Shown here piece after piece: positions 67-7,646 of a stretch of DNA of 7,646 nucleotides. A program made the position numbers and the translations under genes. The notes beneath the pieces were generated by a model. It searched no databases, was not told the DNA's origin, and saw only the letters and a list, made by a program, of their open reading frames with translations. The stretch comes from Candidatus Raymondbacteria bacterium RIFOXYA2_FULL_49_16. Lineage in GTDB: Bacteria; Fibrobacterota; OXYB2-FULL-49-7; XYB2-FULL-49-35. Every line of letters starts with the position of its first letter. The first letter of the stretch is position 1. The stretch is from assembly GCA_001789205.1 (NCBI GenBank), contig MFYT01000066.1, forward strand, positions 1-7,646, in the 5' to 3' direction.

Positions 67-786
67 TTATAGTAAACTCACGCTAGAGGCCGGGTTGTTG
101 AGGGTATAGGTGTTAATGATCAGCGTGGGATGGTCCTGTCCGCCCTGGTTCCTGCTCCATAGGGCGTAGTTACCTCCAACGCTGGTCGTGTCTGTCAGGC
201 ATAGCCCATAGGCGGTTTTGGCAAGCAGCTTCTGATAAATGGAAAGGTCGATGGGTATGCCCATAATTCTGCTTGTGTCGTTGTTCGTGATGGCCCAGCT
301 GTTCCAGACCGAACCATTGTTCCCATTGCACACATTAATTGAATGGTTTGCCGAACTACTAAGCCAGTACGTTGTTTTACCTTGCTTGTATAGATGGCTA
401 CTTCCATTGGCATCATATACCCATTGGCTTGCGCCCTCATGAAAAGTATCAACAATAGTGGATATCCAGAAGGTTTTTGAAATGATATCCGCCGAGGCTG
501 CATTCGACCATTTGAAAGAGAGCGAGCAGGAAGAGACCGGAGAAGTGGAGAGAGACGCAAGGTTCCAGCCGATAAAGGCAAGATACTGGCTATATGGCTT
601 TATCCGCATATAACCGTACGAACCGTTGTTCAGCGTATCTTCCGAGAAAGTCATAGTGCATGTTGTAAAATTATCGTTATTGGTTTCGTATGTGGTCCTG
701 GTGGCAAAAGCAGTGCCAGTGCAAATAATAAGCGACCCCAGAGATAGTGCCAATATTTTGAATATTAATGATACTCTAATCCCCAT
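67..786 (-). CDS. Secreted DNRLRE (CBM96-like) domain protein without sorting tail
   Basis: This is a 239-aa exported protein. Residues 1-28 form a signal peptide: MGIR start, a hydrophobic stretch to about residue 25, then an AFA site with cleavage likely after Ala28. The remainder reads as one DNRLRE-type beta-sandwich. Typical elements are YGYMRI near the start, a buried FIGWNL strand, an FHEGASQW loop (compare the family's 'W.EG..TW' pattern), PIDLS, YALWSRN, and a closing HPTLIINTY strand. Members of this family, now linked to CBM96, are thought to bind polysaccharides or form extracellular structural modules; no catalytic residues are evident. The ATG touches the TAA of the URO-D-like gene (zero spacing) and no strong ribosome site is visible, so translation is probably coupled. 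Unlike its two DNRLRE neighbours it ends at LNNPASSVSLL with no T9SS tail. It may be a periplasmic or freely secreted form, or a copy truncated near the left edge. The fold call is by eye; the ligand is unknown. Confidence 0.8.
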   Translation of the reverse strand: MGIRVSLIFKILALSLGSLIICTGTAFATRTTYETNNDNFTTCTMTFSEDTLNNGSYGYMRIKPYSQYLAFIGWNLASLSTSPVSSCSLSFKWSNAASADIISKTFWISTIVDTFHEGASQWVYDANGSSHLYKQGKTTYWLSSSANHSINVCNGNNGSVWNSWAITNNDTSRIMGIPIDLSIYQKLLAKTAYGLCLTDTTSVGGNYALWSRNQGGQDHPTLIINTYTLNNPASSVSLL

Positions 787-1926
787 TTAATACATGCTCT
801 GCTTGGAATATTCATCCAGCATGGCCATGTAGTTGTCGTACCGCGTTCCCACGGAAATGGAATGACTGGCGCCAAGGATGAACCTGCCGCCCTGTTTGGC
901 GCACTGCATAGCGCGCCGGACATCAGCCCGGACATCATCCATAGTGCCACCGATGAGTAACTCGACTGAAACCCCTCCCCAGAGGGCCATCCTGTTTCCG
1001 TGTGACTTCTTCACCTCACAGATGTCCATGCCTGCGGTGGGCTGGATAGACTGGTAAACATCGTATCCGATATCGATGAAGGAATCGAGCAATACCTTTG
1101 TATTACCGCAGCAATGCTTGAAGACCTTCTTTCCATATCGTGTATGGATAGCATTGACCCTGGTCTTGTTCACGGCAAGGAATTGCGCCTTGAACATTTC
1201 CGGATCAATGAAGGGGCCGTTGTTGAAGCAGAAATCCATACCCCAAAACACTGCATCCGAATCAGGATGGACCATGATGGCATCGTCCATGTTCCGCTTT
1301 TTCAGAAAATAGCCTGTTGCCGCCTCAACAGCCTCGGGATTCATGATCAATTCCTCAAGCCCGCGCTCCAGGCCTCCGAGAAGCACAATGCCCACTTCGC
1401 CACCCGAAGGCCCTATGATGTATTTTTCGTCTTTAAAAACATTGATGACCGAATCAAGTATTTCCCGCGAACGTTTGTCCTGTACGCACGGCATTGGCTC
1501 TTTTTCATATTCCTCTTTTGTAAAAACCATCTGTTCCATGACAGGATCGAACACACAGGTAATGTCAGCGGTCACTTCTGAATATTTATACACGCGGCCA
1601 TACTTGTCTTCCCAGGTCGTGGGATCCACCTTGCGCGGCGCCGGATCATCGCTGGGCCAGGGGACATCCCAGGTGCACATGGGAAAAGTGATGATATCAA
1701 GGTCAAGTTTTTGGAACAACTCAATGTGGTCCCTGCGCCAGCTTTCCGCGACCTCGTCGTGCCTGCCTTCCCAGAACGCGATCTGGGACTTTGCCTTTGC
1801 GCGCAGGTATGTGTCGTGGCCAATGATCTTCTCGACCGTATCAAAATCAATGGCATATTCGCCGATGGGCACGCGGTCTGGTATTCTCCCTTCAACAACC
1901 GCACGGACCCTTTGCTTGGAATTCAT
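787..1926 (-). CDS. Uroporphyrinogen decarboxylase-like (MtaA/CmuA-type) protein
   Basis: A 379-aa cytoplasmic protein with no signal peptide. It opens with the family start pattern (SKQRVRAVVEGRIPDRVPIGEY) and holds one URO-D TIM-barrel domain over nearly its full length. MtaA/CmuA-like members move methyl groups to or from corrinoid or thiol carriers and bind zinc through H-x-C plus a later Cys. Here His271-Cys272-Cys273-Gly (KHCCGN) supplies H-x-C, but the segment where the later Cys is expected reads GGRFILGASHSI, with Ser354-His355 and no Cys. The start ATG has a ribosome site, GAGGTGG (minus strand, 1934-1928), one base upstream of the ATG. A 73-base AT-rich gap separates it from the lyase gene; no hairpin terminator is seen there and a promoter could fit. 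True haem-pathway HemE is unlikely because the sequence has the methyltransferase-type H-x-C motif and sits in a polysaccharide locus. The methyl donor and acceptor are unknown. A corrinoid-linked role on methylated sugars is only inference. Confidence 0.85.
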   Translation of the reverse strand: MNSKQRVRAVVEGRIPDRVPIGEYAIDFDTVEKIIGHDTYLRAKAKSQIAFWEGRHDEVAESWRRDHIELFQKLDLDIITFPMCTWDVPWPSDDPAPRKVDPTTWEDKYGRVYKYSEVTADITCVFDPVMEQMVFTKEEYEKEPMPCVQDKRSREILDSVINVFKDEKYIIGPSGGEVGIVLLGGLERGLEELIMNPEAVEAATGYFLKKRNMDDAIMVHPDSDAVFWGMDFCFNNGPFIDPEMFKAQFLAVNKTRVNAIHTRYGKKVFKHCCGNTKVLLDSFIDIGYDVYQSIQPTAGMDICEVKKSHGNRMALWGGVSVELLIGGTMDDVRADVRRAMQCAKQGGRFILGASHSISVGTRYDNYMAMLDEYSKQSMY

Positions 1927-1999
1927 TCCACCTCAGTTTTTAAATACGATTAAGCATAATCTGAACTATTTGCTATCATATCTTCATTACATTTATTCA

Positions 2000-4900
2000 T
2001 TAATCACCTGCAGGCCGGCTCAACAAAGTAATCCTGAAATCATCGAAATACGCCTCGTCATTTCTGGTACACAACCCAACCCGTGCAGGAAAGGGTATTT
2101 TCTCGGGTATCTTTGCCTTTTCAACCCCGTCCACGAAGACCGTGACAGTATCATTCCGTATCCGAAGCTTAACTGTCTGATATATATCATCAGTGACCAA
2201 TCCATCATACAGCCACCGCACATATCTTCGCGTGCCTTTTTCAACTTTTTGCAATGCATTCCCCGCCACATACCTGTAAAATTCAAAAAAATGGTAGTTG
2301 TTCGTATCAAGAAATCCAAATATTACACCATAATGTCCCCATGGGCTGTCCAAGGGTTCAGGGGAACGCGCGGTCACCTCAATTTCATAATTCGCGGAAT
2401 CTATCACCTGCTCAAGAATGGAATATTCACCTGGAGTCATGTCTCTGCCCGATTCGAAGTCCTTCTCATGAAGATGGTATGAATAATCACCACGATCCAA
2501 ATCGATACTCCATCTGGAGGGCGTCTTGGGCCGCCATTTAAGTTTTGCCCCCTTTTCAAAATCATCAAAATAACTATCCATGACCCTGACCATGCTGCTG
2601 TCTGCAAAACCGGTTGTTTTTAAAATACATCCCACTGATGCCTGGCCTTTCTTGCCTAAGGCCCGGACTGTTCCATTCTGGTCAACAGTGACAATCCCCT
2701 GGGGACGGGTAAACCAGGTTAATTCTCCGGTAATAGGGTGCTTTGTGTTGTCCTTTCTTATTTCCATGGAAGAGACAGTGAACATTGTGTTTGGGCCTAT
2801 TTCAACATATGATGGAGATACAGAGATTCCTGTTATTGGCAAAACCGGAAGAGTAACCTGAATATTCGAAGTATCGTGCTCTGCGACCAACACCGCGCCA
2901 ATCTCTTTTATCGAATATCCCTCTTTTGTTATTCTTATTGTGTTCTCTCCTATACGTGCTGGAAATTCAAGAATACCGTCTTTGCCTGTCAGGTCCGTTG
3001 CCATAAGAGAATTTTTAGACAAAAGTTCGACCCTGGCCCCTGTCAGTGCATTCCTGTTTGTTGAATCCTTAACAGTTACCCTGATAAGTTCTGATTTGCC
3101 CATTTTACGGCGCATAAATTTGGCCACATAATTATTCCCGTTTTGTGATGTATATGTGATAAGCGTGTTGTAGCCAGTGTTGTTGTATGTGACCCCTTCA
3201 GGGATCTGGGTCCCTTCCAATGGCTCATTCACGGTAACATGAAAGACCTTTGGCGTATGCGATGGATAACACGCAGCCAGAACAAACGTATCACCTGAAG
3301 TTTCATAGAAGACAAGGCATGGGGAATCCACCCTGATCTTATCAATTATCCCGCGTTCCCAGAAAACAATACCCGTGGCATTCAGCGTATTGTCCCGTAC
3401 AGCATGGATGCTTTCCGTGTTGGCCAGGATTGTGACCGGACATTTGGCAGAGTATTCCTCTGTCTGTTTTTCTGATTTTCCAGGCAGCACAATATAGGAA
3501 TATCGCTGGTCTTTCGCATTTGTACCATGGTCAATCCAAAGACAGAACATTGGACAGGAATGCATGGTGTCGCTCGCGGGTTCATCAATCTCGCGCCAGG
3601 TGCCGGACTGGATTCCTTGCTCAATGTTAATGGCTTGTTTTTCAGGGAAACAATAACCTATGCCGTCGCTATGGACCCAATTGGCGCTGATTGCCCCCTG
3701 GTAATCAGGCTGTGTTGATGTTTTATTCTGTCCATCCACATATAAAGGCACGCCTTGCTTTGAAAGCGGCCGCTGGTTGATGATGGTTTCCGCGCGGTTT
3801 TTTCCAGGGCACGATATTCCACTGCCCAAACAGACCATCTGGTCCTTAAAAAAGAACCAGCTTTTCTTTGCCTTCAGGTTGGAGCGGTAAGCCTCGAAAT
3901 CCATTGCTGTTACGCCATTTTTATCTGTATGAACCCCGCCGACAAAGCTTTTTTTACCCATGGCCCCGACCGTGGATACGTTCCTCGGTTTTCTCTCAAC
4001 AGTGGTGCCGGGAATCCTGTACCAGTCAAGGGCTGGCAGGGCATTGTTATATTCGTCTCCATTGAGCAGGATCAAGGTCATTCCGTCACAAAGGTGCCAA
4101 CCCTTAAGGTTCTCATCATTTATGGATTCGCTTGCTATTGTCCTGCATGAAACGGTCTTGACCGATATATAATAATTAGGCTGTCTATAGATCGTATAAT
4201 CTGAATAATTATAATGCACAATACCCGAAGGCCAGGCCGCCAATATTGGGGAAAGCTTTACCTTTTGGGCCAACCCGGCCATTTCCAAACTAAGCGGCCC
4301 GTCCCATGTATCGAGCATGCTTTTTGCGGCCGCTGTCAATTGTACCTGCCTTTTACCAGGGACATTTGACAGAACCAGCATGGCAGTAAGGCCTGACTCC
4401 GCGCATTTTTGAGGGTGTGAAATCCTGCGGCCTATTACTGCCAAATCAAAATAATTGTCGTATATGCACCACCGTATGCCTTCGGACACAAAATCCATCA
4501 AATCGTTAAATTGCCTGTCTGGTATCTGGAACCTGGTCCCGCGGGTAAAAAGAAGATATAGTGAAAGTTCCTTGGCATAGCCCGCGCCATACACCCCGGT
4601 ATATAAAAGCGGGCCGTGCGCGTGGAAGGAATTGTCGGGCTGATGGCCTTCGGTTGTACCATCGGGCTTATGGCCTTCGGGCGTACCATCTGATTTCATA
4701 GCAATTTTAGCTGCTTTTTTGCGAACAACATCTATTTTTGATGGGTCATTAACAAGAAGGGCATGATAAAAATGACCCATGGCATACCAAATGCCATTGG
4801 CGCCGCCATACTTCATGAAATTTTCTTCAGAGACCCCGAACGTCTGGTCAAAAATGCAGTATTCTATTGTAGATAGCGTTTTATTAAAAGTCTTTGCGTC

Positions 4901-5413
4901 CACTTCATTCTGAAGCAGCAGAAGCGTTTGGCCCAAGGTCAGGGGCAATGATATCTGCCAGAAGTACCAATTGGACTTTTCCGTGCCAGGATGTATGAAT
5001 TTGTATCCATAGCTTAGCGCCTTTTCTATGTTCCGCACCAGTCCCTTGTCTCCATATAGATTTTGTCCAGGGGTCGCATATGCCGTTGCCATGACAAGCA
5101 TGCGTTGATAATGGTTGAACATGCCGTTATCACCCCTTCTGGCCAAATCGAAGTCTTTGTCCCTGTAATCAATGCGTCGCCAACTGCCATTGGGTTGGAT
5201 TGAATCATTATACGCTTGGGCATCGGCATATAGCTTTTTAATGGCCGTAGATACCAACGGATCGTTCCTGTCTGCGCCGCTGGCAGTCAGAAAATCCAAT
5301 ATGTTTGATTTAATTTTTTTTATGTCGTTGTGCCGTAAATTCCCCGTACATGCGCAGAAAACGCATACAAAATAAAACCATATGAAGACACCGGCTGTTT
5401 TTTGGCTTATCAT
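2000..5413 (-). CDS. Family 8 polysaccharide lyase, multidomain, probable lipoprotein
   Basis: 1137 aa. The export signal ends FCAC at Cys22, an imperfect lipobox (Phe at -3). Residues about 30-770 form the PL8 alpha/alpha toroid and beta-sandwich, the fold of hyaluronan, chondroitin AC and xanthan lyases, which cut uronic-acid glycans by beta-elimination. Visible marks are the aromatic patch NWYFWQISLP (148-157), Asn206 in GGAN, His266 in SFHAHGP with Tyr275 nine residues on (the family spacing), Arg329 in GRRIS, Glu434 in NDENLKGW, and DWYRIPGTTV (463-472). The second Arg of the usual RxISR motif is His333. The C-terminal part adds a carboxypeptidase-regulatory-like domain (about 775-855), a Big_2-like Ig domain (858-945) and a concanavalin A-like domain (947-1132), making it longer than a simple PL8 enzyme. 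There is no T9SS tail. The ATG lies 13 bases after the upstream TGA and lacks a clear ribosome site, suggesting coupled translation; no nearby in-frame Met offers an alternative. Family assignment is firm; substrate is not determinable. Confidence 0.93.
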   Translation of the reverse strand: MISQKTAGVFIWFYFVCVFCACTGNLRHNDIKKIKSNILDFLTASGADRNDPLVSTAIKKLYADAQAYNDSIQPNGSWRRIDYRDKDFDLARRGDNGMFNHYQRMLVMATAYATPGQNLYGDKGLVRNIEKALSYGYKFIHPGTEKSNWYFWQISLPLTLGQTLLLLQNEVDAKTFNKTLSTIEYCIFDQTFGVSEENFMKYGGANGIWYAMGHFYHALLVNDPSKIDVVRKKAAKIAMKSDGTPEGHKPDGTTEGHQPDNSFHAHGPLLYTGVYGAGYAKELSLYLLFTRGTRFQIPDRQFNDLMDFVSEGIRWCIYDNYFDLAVIGRRISHPQKCAESGLTAMLVLSNVPGKRQVQLTAAAKSMLDTWDGPLSLEMAGLAQKVKLSPILAAWPSGIVHYNYSDYTIYRQPNYYISVKTVSCRTIASESINDENLKGWHLCDGMTLILLNGDEYNNALPALDWYRIPGTTVERKPRNVSTVGAMGKKSFVGGVHTDKNGVTAMDFEAYRSNLKAKKSWFFFKDQMVCLGSGISCPGKNRAETIINQRPLSKQGVPLYVDGQNKTSTQPDYQGAISANWVHSDGIGYCFPEKQAINIEQGIQSGTWREIDEPASDTMHSCPMFCLWIDHGTNAKDQRYSYIVLPGKSEKQTEEYSAKCPVTILANTESIHAVRDNTLNATGIVFWERGIIDKIRVDSPCLVFYETSGDTFVLAACYPSHTPKVFHVTVNEPLEGTQIPEGVTYNNTGYNTLITYTSQNGNNYVAKFMRRKMGKSELIRVTVKDSTNRNALTGARVELLSKNSLMATDLTGKDGILEFPARIGENTIRITKEGYSIKEIGAVLVAEHDTSNIQVTLPVLPITGISVSPSYVEIGPNTMFTVSSMEIRKDNTKHPITGELTWFTRPQGIVTVDQNGTVRALGKKGQASVGCILKTTGFADSSMVRVMDSYFDDFEKGAKLKWRPKTPSRWSIDLDRGDYSYHLHEKDFESGRDMTPGEYSILEQVIDSANYEIEVTARSPEPLDSPWGHYGVIFGFLDTNNYHFFEFYRYVAGNALQKVEKGTRRYVRWLYDGLVTDDIYQTVKLRIRNDTVTVFVDGVEKAKIPEKIPFPARVGLCTRNDEAYFDDFRITLLSRPAGD
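4635..4688. repeat. Two tandem 27-base units inside the lyase gene
   Basis: The units 4635-4661 and 4662-4688 match at 24 of 27 positions, differing at unit positions 8, 20 and 21. In the protein they correspond to DGTPEGHKP (242-250) and DGTTEGHQP (251-259). The next nine residues, DNSFHAHGP (260-268), keep D1, H7 and P9 of the unit and contain the catalytic His266. The repeat is in frame and lengthens the segment leading into the active-site loop. Confidence 0.9.
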
Positions 5414-5426
5414 TGGTAAGTGATAC

Positions 5427-6383
5427 TCACTTTAAAAGGGTAATCTGCTTTGTTATTGTTCTGCCGTTGTTGACAGCGCGCACTATATATATGCCCGAAT
5501 GATAGTTGCACGCGCGCCATGCGGCCTGTCCGGTGATTCTGTCAGGAGTCAAGTCCGCGGCCATCCGGCCGTTGGTATCGTAAATCCGCAGAGACGTGTT
5601 ACCACGCATGCTTACGGTAATTGTTACGTCCGGGTTGAACGGATTGGGCTGGGCAGTCACGATCTGCCCGGAAACGACTGGCCTGCTCTCCTGTTCGCTA
5701 TCTGTCAGCCTGGCATACACCCATAATTCGTTCGGCTGCCTGTAAAAATACCACTGATCCCATCCGTTCGCAGCAGCATCCCATCCCCAGACGCATATTC
5801 CATGCGCGTTTCCCTCGAGATAGTCTTTTACAACCGACAGATCAAGATCGAGTACAAGGTATGAACCCACTATATTCGACGAATCACCCTGAAGCGGAGC
5901 CTTGCCCTCGTTCACCAGGACCGACAGATTTGCGTATCCCTGTTTCCATGGAACAGAGGGGCTCTGTGCGTACAGAAAACTCGGTTCACCCGCAGGCGGG
6001 GGGCTGGTGAAATTCTGCTGTGTACCTTGAATCCAGTCGCTGTCTGACTGTATACAATTGTAATACATGCCTGCAAGTCCTCTCCAGTTATTTTCAGGCC
6101 CCAATGCGAGCTGGACGCCCGCGATCTGATCGAATGGAGGCAGATTTGAAACAGTGTAATCCATGAGCCAGTAATGGGCGCTGTTGGTCTTGAAAAAACC
6201 AAAGTTCGGGTCGCTGTAATTGCCCGCCTGCTCTCTGGAAGCGCTGGAAAGCCAGCCGTCCTTGATGGTGGGCAGCCTGAATTTCTGGTATTGGGATCTC
6301 GCGTAGTTAATCGGAGCTGCCCATGCGCTGGCGCAGATTATAAACGCGAAACAAAGCGCAAATGCACTGATTGAAAATCTCAT
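5427..6383 (-). CDS. Secreted DNRLRE-like protein with T9SS type A sorting domain
   Basis: 318 aa. Signal peptide is residues 1-22 or 1-23 (MRFSIS start, hydrophobic core, ASAWAA cleavage region). Residues about 24-235 form a beta-rich module resembling DNRLRE/CBM96 domains, with IAGVQLALG, a tryptophan-bearing SDSDWIQGTQQ loop, a LVLDLDLSVVKDYLEG segment and a C-terminal YFYRQPNELWVYARL strand. Residues 245-318 are a Por_Secre_tail-like T9SS type A domain: PNPFNPDVTI, LRIYDTNGRM, SGIYIVRAV and the terminal KQITLLK. In T9SS bacteria such tails direct passage across the outer membrane and are usually removed, often with attachment to the surface. The gene starts 9 bases after the 371-aa gene and stops 13 bases before the lyase gene, so all three are probably co-transcribed. 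It likely acts as a surface glycan-binding or structural partner of the lyase. The tail is clear; the N-terminal family call is by eye, and no catalytic motif is visible. Confidence 0.82.
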   Translation of the reverse strand: MRFSISAFALCFAFIICASAWAAPINYARSQYQKFRLPTIKDGWLSSASREQAGNYSDPNFGFFKTNSAHYWLMDYTVSNLPPFDQIAGVQLALGPENNWRGLAGMYYNCIQSDSDWIQGTQQNFTSPPPAGEPSFLYAQSPSVPWKQGYANLSVLVNEGKAPLQGDSSNIVGSYLVLDLDLSVVKDYLEGNAHGICVWGWDAAANGWDQWYFYRQPNELWVYARLTDSEQESRPVVSGQIVTAQPNPFNPDVTITVSMRGNTSLRIYDTNGRMAADLTPDRITGQAAWRACNYHSGIYIVRAVNNGRTITKQITLLK

Positions 6384-6394
6384 GCACCCCCCCT
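6384..6394 (-). promoter_or_regulatory. G-rich ribosome binding site with a seven-G run
   Basis: On the minus strand the junction reads TAGGGGGGGTGCATG. The run of seven G (6393-6387) begins with the last base of the upstream TAG stop and provides the Shine-Dalgarno-like element for the 318-aa gene, three bases from its ATG. Such a homopolymer could change length by slippage, which would alter spacing but not either reading frame. Confidence 0.6.
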
Positions 6395-7508
6395 ATTTAA
6401 TCAGGATAATTCTTTTGGAAACAGTGCTGTTGCCCACCGTAAGGCGCGAGAAATAGACGCCGGAAGGCAGGTTCCCGGCATCCCACATTTTAGAACCCTT
6501 GCCGCTGACTATGGTTGAATAGACCATTTTGCCGACAGAGTTGAAGACCTTGAGCGCGCCCCTGTTTCCCAGCGTGTTGTAGGAGATGTTGGTAGTGGGG
6601 TTGAAGGGGTTGGGTTCGTTAGTAAGGGAGACCTTGCCAGCGACTGCGGCAGAGGCGTTTTCTGCCTTGACCTGCGCGAGATTGCCCACGCAGAGCAGGT
6701 GGGCAGTGTTTCCGTCGGTTGACCAATATTCGGCCAGCGGTGGTGTGGCGCCGCCGTCAACACCGGAGCAGTTTTCATTAGCAGAAATAGAGGCTTTGCC
6801 CGTGCTGCCGGCGCCGATTGGGGCGAGGCATACAATTGCCCATGCTGAGATGTCCGTGATGTTGTTCAGTATCCAGTTGACTTGCGCGGTAACGTCGACC
6901 TGCATGAACTGCTTGCCAAGGAGAGGAGTGCCGTCAATCGCGGGACGGCCCGCTGGGGCCGTGTAATTAATGGTCGACTCCGCACCTGCGATGGTGAGTG
7001 CATAATCGAGGGTGTTCATGGGATCGAGATCTGACCATACAGCATCGTCGGGCATGGCAGCAGGGCCGCCCCACATTGAAACACCGAAAGAGACGTCAAC
7101 CACACCGCAACGTATGGCAACAGGGCCAGCGTTGCAGAGGGGACCGTTGGCGCTCCAGTAGTCGATGAATTCGCCGCGGAGGTATGCGGAGGTAACATTG
7201 CCGCCCGCATTGGCGATATCGTTGAGGTTCGCTGAGTAGAACACTCCGCACCAGCCCTGGTTGTCGAGCGGGTTGGAGCCGAAACTGAAGCCCTTACCTG
7301 CATAGCCAAGGCCCGAGCTATTATTCGCCGTAACTATTTTACCTTCATGCACAAAAGCCCCTGCGGAAATGCCCGGACCAGGGTTGTCCTGAAGAGTGTA
7401 CGCGTTTGTCGTGGCCTTGTACCAATAGACATGCGTCCCGCTGCTCAACTGGGCATACGCGCACAAACTGAGTGTCAACATTAACACTCCGACCAGTGCT
7501 TTTCTCAT
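6393..7508 (-). CDS. Secreted DNRLRE-like protein with T9SS type A sorting domain
   Basis: 371 aa from the ATG at 7508. Signal peptide MRKALVGVLMLTLSLCAYA is cleaved after Ala19. Residues about 20-280 form a beta-rich, Gly/Ala-rich module with six cysteines (WCGVF, LCNAG, IRCGV, IVCLA, ENCSG, LLCVG), hence possible disulfides. The segment FMQVDVTAQVNWIL matches the conserved 'DVT..V..W' part of DNRLRE domains, and LAEYWSTD fits the last strand. Residues 298-371 are a T9SS type A tail: PNPFNPTTNISY, LKVFNSVGKM, LPSGVYFSRL and SKRIILIK. A longer frame opens at 7634, but its first 41 codons are group II intron RNA and lack signal-peptide character. AGGAGGAG at 7520-7513 sits 6 bases (core) from the 7508 ATG and 3 from the adjacent ATG at 7511, so 7508 is preferred. 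It is the first gene of the visible unit. Its ligand is unknown; a surface binding or structural role is inferred from the domain and neighbours. Confidence 0.85.
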   Translation of the reverse strand: MRKALVGVLMLTLSLCAYAQLSSGTHVYWYKATTNAYTLQDNPGPGISAGAFVHEGKIVTANNSSGLGYAGKGFSFGSNPLDNQGWCGVFYSANLNDIANAGGNVTSAYLRGEFIDYWSANGPLCNAGPVAIRCGVVDVSFGVSMWGGPAAMPDDAVWSDLDPMNTLDYALTIAGAESTINYTAPAGRPAIDGTPLLGKQFMQVDVTAQVNWILNNITDISAWAIVCLAPIGAGSTGKASISANENCSGVDGGATPPLAEYWSTDGNTAHLLCVGNLAQVKAENASAAVAGKVSLTNEPNPFNPTTNISYNTLGNRGALKVFNSVGKMVYSTIVSGKGSKMWDAGNLPSGVYFSRLTVGNSTVSKRIILIK

Positions 7509-7512
7509 CATT

Positions 7513-7520
7513 CTCCTCCT
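7513..7520 (-). promoter_or_regulatory. Strong ribosome binding site fixing the start of the 371-aa gene
   Basis: The minus strand reads AGGAGGAG, followed by two consecutive ATG codons at 7511 and 7508. The spacing from the AGGAGG core is 3 bases to the first and 6 to the second. The site argues against initiation at 7634 inside the intron sequence. Confidence 0.85.
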
Positions 7521-7557
7521 TTTGCGGTTGTTTATACTACACCTAAAAAATGGTTTT

Positions 7558-7590
7558 GTTGAGTAGACCGGGCAGTTGCCTGCCCAGCCC
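7558..7590 (-). ncRNA. Group II intron domain VI with candidate branch-point A
   Basis: An 8-pair stem CUGGGCAG/CUGCCCGG (7587-7580 with 7575-7568, one U-G pair) closes a GCAA tetraloop, a GNRA type. The basal part UCUACUC holds the candidate branch adenosine at 7564. It follows domain V directly, as expected for an intron 3' end. Confidence 0.82.
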
Positions 7591-7596
7591 CTCGCG

Positions 7597-7629
7597 GAAC
7601 CGTACGAGCAGCTTTCCCGCATACGGCTC
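7597..7629 (-). ncRNA. Group II intron domain V
   Basis: 33 bases folding as a hairpin. The outer stem GAGCCGUA pairs along all 8 positions with UACGGUUC, including one G-U pair in the catalytic AGC triad region. A CG bulge on the 3' side, an inner stem GCGG/CUGC and a GAAAG loop follow. These are the hallmarks of the intron's catalytic core. One apparent flaw is a U-U opposition next to the bulge (5' position 9 against 23), where many bacterial copies have U-A. Confidence 0.87.
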
Positions 7630-7646
7630 TTCATTCGGTCTTCGGG

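Follow-up and report, generated by a model that had tools for sequence, protein, structure and literature searches.

Which features of a genome decide where the group II intron found in this locus comes to rest, and how can its hosts tolerate it there? The window under study, a stretch of 7,646 nt analysed as a whole, constitutes the entire contig C66 of a 5.43 Mb genome assembled into 112 contigs. The preliminary description had recognised domains V and VI on its minus strand and had suggested an Rfam covariance-model search, in which RF00029 (score cut-off 40 bits) indeed matches positions 7631-7558 (-) over its full length with 49.7 bits (E 1e-7), while the predicted V–VI fold reaches -41.6 kcal/mol (z = -5.0), equalled by 0 of 200 shuffles. 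From the RF00029 match and the fold, the domain V helix spans 7597..7629 (-) and is identical on six other contigs of the genome; the domain VI helix, at 7561..7593 (-) in the fold and the RF00029 alignment, carries a GCAA loop and a branch-point A bulged at 7564, seven nt from the 3' end. Full-length match, fold and copies together confirm the 3' end of a group II intron. Eight copies are alike down to ..CTACTCAAC and diverge beyond, which fixes the 3' splice junction between the last intron base 7558 and the first exon base 7557 (7557..7558, minus strand). The claimed distance of 49 nt to the ATG (7508) of a 371-aa gene is thereby upheld, with the position now set by the other copies. The suspicion of some decay is not borne out, V–VI being identical in seven copies. 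Upstream of domain V the intron is retained at 7633..7646 (-), as the alignment with copy C84 shows, and is cut by the contig end. The intron body is absent from the window because this contig, covered by the window in full, breaks off within a repeat.

Downstream of the junction, the 3' exon starts with AAA ACC ATT TTT TAG (7543..7557, minus strand) and would read (M)KTIF* if the preceding exon, as in the other copies, ends in ATG. It is followed by AGGAGG (7515..7520, minus strand), the Shine–Dalgarno sequence (SD) of the 371-aa gene at 6393..7508 (-), whose secreted product carries a C-terminal sorting domain (Por_Secre_tail, Pfam PF18962), and for which a second ATG lies 3 nt upstream of 7508, at 7511. 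Positions 67-7508 encode, on one strand, a polysaccharide lyase family 8 enzyme, a URO-D-like protein and two type IX-like C-terminal-sorting-domain proteins. A second intron family (V–VI 40.8 bits) occurs on contigs C39 and C48, and its 3' exon on C39 (L014) is a homologue of the 371-aa gene of the window, from the second codon on. In this genome, two homologous secreted-protein genes (6393-7508 of the window and L014) each have an intron at the start or shortly ahead of it, and the two introns belong to separate group II families.

The 74-bp V–VI segment lies on seven contigs including the window, in each case at most ~170 bp from a contig end, and 63 bp of it form an eighth copy at the end of contig C100. 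With a relative, L031, as query, the 5' end of the intron was located at seven contig ends; the pattern ATGGTGCGNC, used for the 5' end in this genome, matched two unrelated sites only. On most contigs the element runs for ~65-95 nt before the contig stops, on the 5' and 3' sides alike, as happens where a repeat interrupts an assembly, and the middle of the element is missing from the assembled contigs. The 3' ends reside on eight different contigs and at unrelated genes, and loci with several D5/6 units were not encountered. As a separate observation, contigs C11, C39 and C34 of this genome (G000; loci L011, L015 and L016) hold three near-identical copies of a domain V whose domain VI is shortened (GCTATCTATTACCCAYAA); their flanks are unrelated, and they constitute a further repeat family.

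All seven 5' exons end in ATG, with GTTAACCTGGCAATGAG immediately after. A strict SD at proper spacing precedes this ATG in four of the seven, compared to 7% of the ATGs of the genome (p = 7e-4), while the remaining three show weaker purine-rich stretches. The proposal that this might be a class C intron inserted behind a terminator is therefore not supported by the 5' exons; a terminator-like hairpin was seen by eye upstream of the 5' exon on C87. On the other side, six of the eight 3' exons begin directly with an open phase-0 frame of 173-500 codons and resemble secretion signals, a response regulator-Hpt protein and a FolE2-like protein missing only their Met, with the FolE2-like and response-regulator domains beginning at the junction. 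From 5' exons ending in ATG and coding 3' exons we therefore conclude that the intron separates the first codon of a gene from the second, the exceptions being the window copy and the one on C102, which interrupt no gene in phase. What the preliminary description had overlooked is an intron family placed behind start codons and equipped with start signals of its own.

The build of the element can be followed in its relatives. L031 is whole (0.68 kb) and L049 nearly so, both without an RT gene; their domains I–IV match RF02005 in full and join V–VI contiguously in normal domain order, and the first 90 nt of the window family match the 5' ends of both. If it is like these nearest whole relatives, the window intron would measure ~0.7 kb and lack an RT gene; other RTs of the genome are encoded on contigs C1, C40, C42 and C34. 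The 5' boundary reads GUUAAC in seven copies instead of GUGYG, a motif which is usual at this position, not strictly required, and boundaries are not reliably found with one consensus (PMC4028801). We considered a 5'-truncated intron and rejected it: the distance from the 5' end of the intron to the beginning of the RF02005 match is 35 nt in L031, against 33 nt in the canonical L084, and the window family therefore seems 5'-complete. A circularly permuted group II RNA (PMC8637638) was likewise rejected, L031 and L049 having their domains in normal order.

How start codons are recognised is suggested by EBS1, which was read in relatives only, that part of the window family being absent from the assembly. 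The loop is complementary to the six exon bases that precede the intron and changes along with them from one target to another; in most readable copies it pairs with AUG(A). At start codons we find the pairs UCAUUU/..AUGA, UCAUAU/GUAUGA and CAUUUU/AUAAUG, and the choice between a target ending in ATG and one ending in ATGA corresponds to a one-base shift of EBS1. The pairs CGAAAU/AUUUCG (L049), ACCAAU/AUUGGU (L107) and CUUUUU/GAAAAG (L073) belong to introns that do not sit at start codons, and these three have no SD in domain VI. Given the covariation of EBS1 and the absence of the SD away from start codons, targeting of start codons is therefore tied to the presence of spare start signals. 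In L097, EBS1 pairs over AUGA only, and in L092 and L104 no EBS1 match was found. These last two come from Sulfurimonas, where they follow the starts of a pglD-like and a citrate synthase gene; their domain I is shorter or of another kind, and no UCAUUU loop was found in it.

Within the window family, an SD with ATG upstream of domain V is visible in one copy only, C84, which is readable furthest upstream. There, AGGAGGAACCT-ATG opens the frame MSVSSMNTKPRRPNEEPYAGKLLVRFREGLGRQLPGLLN, which passes through V–VI into the host gene in phase; taken alone this is only suggestive, because ~1.3% of shuffles reach the same arrangement. Positions 7633..7646 (-) of the window are open in the frame that begins at this start in C84, and L031 possesses an SD and an ATG that are poorly spaced.

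A second type of intron, in which SD and ATG lie within domain VI, was observed in G014 and G025, genomes of the same phylum as that of the window, and on contig C60 of the window's own genome. The latter locus (L116, G000:C60, 192-1729) apparently contains a second group II intron nested in domain V, that is, a twintron, and has a doubled 3' end (TCTACTCGACGCTCTACTCGAC). We scanned one genome per species for 84,980 species with a pattern for domain V–VI that includes the ATG, demanding neither SD nor gene; the resulting 42 stretches, from Sulfurimonas, Sulfurovum, Spirochaetes, Melioribacteraceae, Neomarinimicrobiota, Bdellovibrio and Gammaproteobacteria, give no share of introns lacking an ATG, as the pattern required it. 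Pooled with the earlier loci, they amount to 49 loci with 23 distinct domain VI sequences. The AUG is preceded by an SD of 4-6 bases at a spacing of 4-8 in 18 of these 23, and all 18 SDs are at least half paired in the predicted domain VI fold. At 34 of the 44 loci with enough DNA, the longest downstream frame is in phase with the intron AUG (nominal p = 3e-9, a value that overstates independence because loci of one family share one intron); frames of at least 100 codons are in phase at 26 loci, compared to 1 in the other phases.

Complete copies of this second type follow the layout SD..ATGA/GTGYG....SD..ATG TCT ACT CTA C/NN (or CGA C/NN, splice junctions marked by a slash), with a strict SD in eight of ten 5' exons, and the gene is therefore in frame both spliced and unspliced. 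The proteins fused in this way include sdhA-, bcp-, pglD- and dTDP-glucose dehydratase-like proteins, citrate synthase and HtpG. No citrate synthase other than the interrupted one gives a full-length match in that MAG, and the interrupted htpG is the only htpG in its genome, another MAG. A domain VI with SD and ATG is also present on plasmid pKAP298 of Caedibacter taeniospiralis (NC_005915.1; L135, 3600-3710), reading TAGGAG..ATG TCT ACT CGA C. The frame from this ATG is short, and its TGA overlaps a downstream ATG, as in translational coupling. The domain VI pattern had no match in viral contigs, nor did a domain V–VI query in E. coli; Persicobacter plasmids hold copies 79% like the V–VI of the window, within repeats and away from gene starts.

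We propose that these introns home to start codons and bring along an in-frame spare SD and AUG which lets the unspliced host gene be translated, a reading to which we assign a probability of roughly 0.6. Target site, phase and the intron-borne SD and AUG can be read directly from the sequences; what we infer from them is that the intron splices, that ribosomes can begin at its internal start and that the two processes compete. In this model, an EBS1 able to pair with the last bases of a start site (..AUG or ..AUGA) would direct insertion, by reverse splicing of the intron ribonucleoprotein, to the position directly behind the start codon. Insertion would part the SD and AUG of a gene from its body, and splicing would rejoin AUG(A) to the second codon and restore the normal protein. 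The intron's own SD and AUG, set in the frame of the gene, would in the window family act from before domain V, with translation reading through V–VI; in the second type they are part of the helix of domain VI, and folding of the ribozyme probably conceals them, which would make splicing and translation mutually exclusive. Unspliced mRNA would be translated from the intron start with an N-terminal extension of MSTLQ-, MSTR- or ~39 residues, so insertion could be tolerated even in core genes. In more general terms, we see even odds that a family of bacterial group II introns targets translation starts as such, and that a folded in-frame ribosome-binding site and start codon within their catalytic part act as a splice-or-translate switch, the host protein being made in either case, at most with a few extra residues at its N-terminus.

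The strongest alternative accepts homing to start codons and denies the intron SD and AUG any role in host expression: the AUG would be a structural partner of GGCAU, the GA-rich strand would close the helix, and the phase would be set by the fixed target. We consider this unlikely, while acknowledging that nearly all folds show the AUG paired to CAU at the foot of domain VI, including those of the SD-less L073 and L107 and of Spirochaetia copies without an in-phase gene, and that a phase fixed once per family matches by chance in one of three families. The Spirochaetia copies comprise seven loci of Bin_56_1 with a domain VI ATG, some with SD, and no in-phase gene. Their 3' exons (L080, L082, L087, L090, L098, L100 and L102) begin alike, with AATACTTTCTGG or AATAATTTCTG, and the copies are perhaps inserted in another repeat. 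A purely structural AUG is, however, difficult to reconcile with SDs of that length and spacing in 18 of the 23 distinct domain VI sequences, across several phyla and in helices that otherwise differ. It would further have to account for the correct phase in each family examined at gene starts (Sulfurimonas, Gammaproteobacteria, Melioribacteraceae, Bdellovibrio, G014, G025 and C60) and for the window family, where the start sits elsewhere, before domain V, and is still in phase.

An ordinary group II intron or fragment lying by chance before a secreted-protein gene, unrelated to translation starts, is all that the window alone would suggest, its copy being 49 nt ahead of a gene with its own SD; identical copies placed exactly behind start codons elsewhere in the genome, seen from both the 5' and the 3' side, contradict this and render it very improbable. 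We give hardly any credence to the idea that scattered stand-alone V–VI units offer a small number of full introns other 3' splice sites, by trans- or alternative splicing, for which the separate contigs of 5' and 3' ends and the several D5/6 motifs of C. tetani C.te.I1 holding start codons of downstream ORFs (PMC3919590) would speak, since contigs enter the element by ~80-95 nt on both sides as at an assembly repeat, 5' ends (seven) are about as numerous as 3' ends (eight), and in L031 and L049 all domains from I to VI follow one another without a break.

If start-codon homing with a replacement start is true, the intron would encode the N-termini of some annotated proteins (MSTLQ..., MSTR...), and genetic tools could draw on a natural expression switch built from a ribozyme and on an intron that targets start codons; it would also bear on how splicing and coupled translation coexist. 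Bacterial group II introns are generally thought to be tolerated by avoiding genes, by landing behind terminators or by splicing well. The proposed strategy would, if true, be another way to inhabit core genes such as those for citrate synthase, sdhA-like proteins, htpG and folE2. A search of the open-access literature found no start-codon-homing group II introns with their own SD.

Among known systems, class C introns are alike in that they too are group II introns that move within bacteria and settle at a site of conserved type; they sit behind terminators, in contrast to the translation starts occupied here by introns with relatives whose domains I–IV match RF02005. At a translation start, the riboswitch-controlled group I intron of Clostridioides difficile, which responds to c-di-GMP, governs by self-splicing whether the ribosome-binding site is joined to the start codon. 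That intron is ligand-controlled and of group I, whereas those described here are group II, multicopy and supply their own start. Structure hiding ribosome-binding sites inside introns is known for intron-encoded genes (PMC3073962), while here such hiding would serve the host gene. The nearest precedent for insertion adjoining a start codon is given by the F3 introns of Thermosynechococcus elongatus, which insert at a single position within the RT frame of sister introns (PMC2882425), in contrast to the start codons of unrelated genes targeted here by an intron with its own start. For start codons in D5/6, the nearest precedent is C.te.I1 of Clostridium tetani (McNeil et al., PMC3919590). According to that paper, in which neither 'Shine-Dalgarno' nor 'ribosome binding' occurs, start codons of downstream frames lie within D5/6 motifs, the main mRNA is the unspliced transcript, and a single intron, situated after the end of an open frame, uses four D5/6 units for alternative splicing. 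The introns described here differ in that each copy stands behind the start codon of a gene and would restore that same gene.
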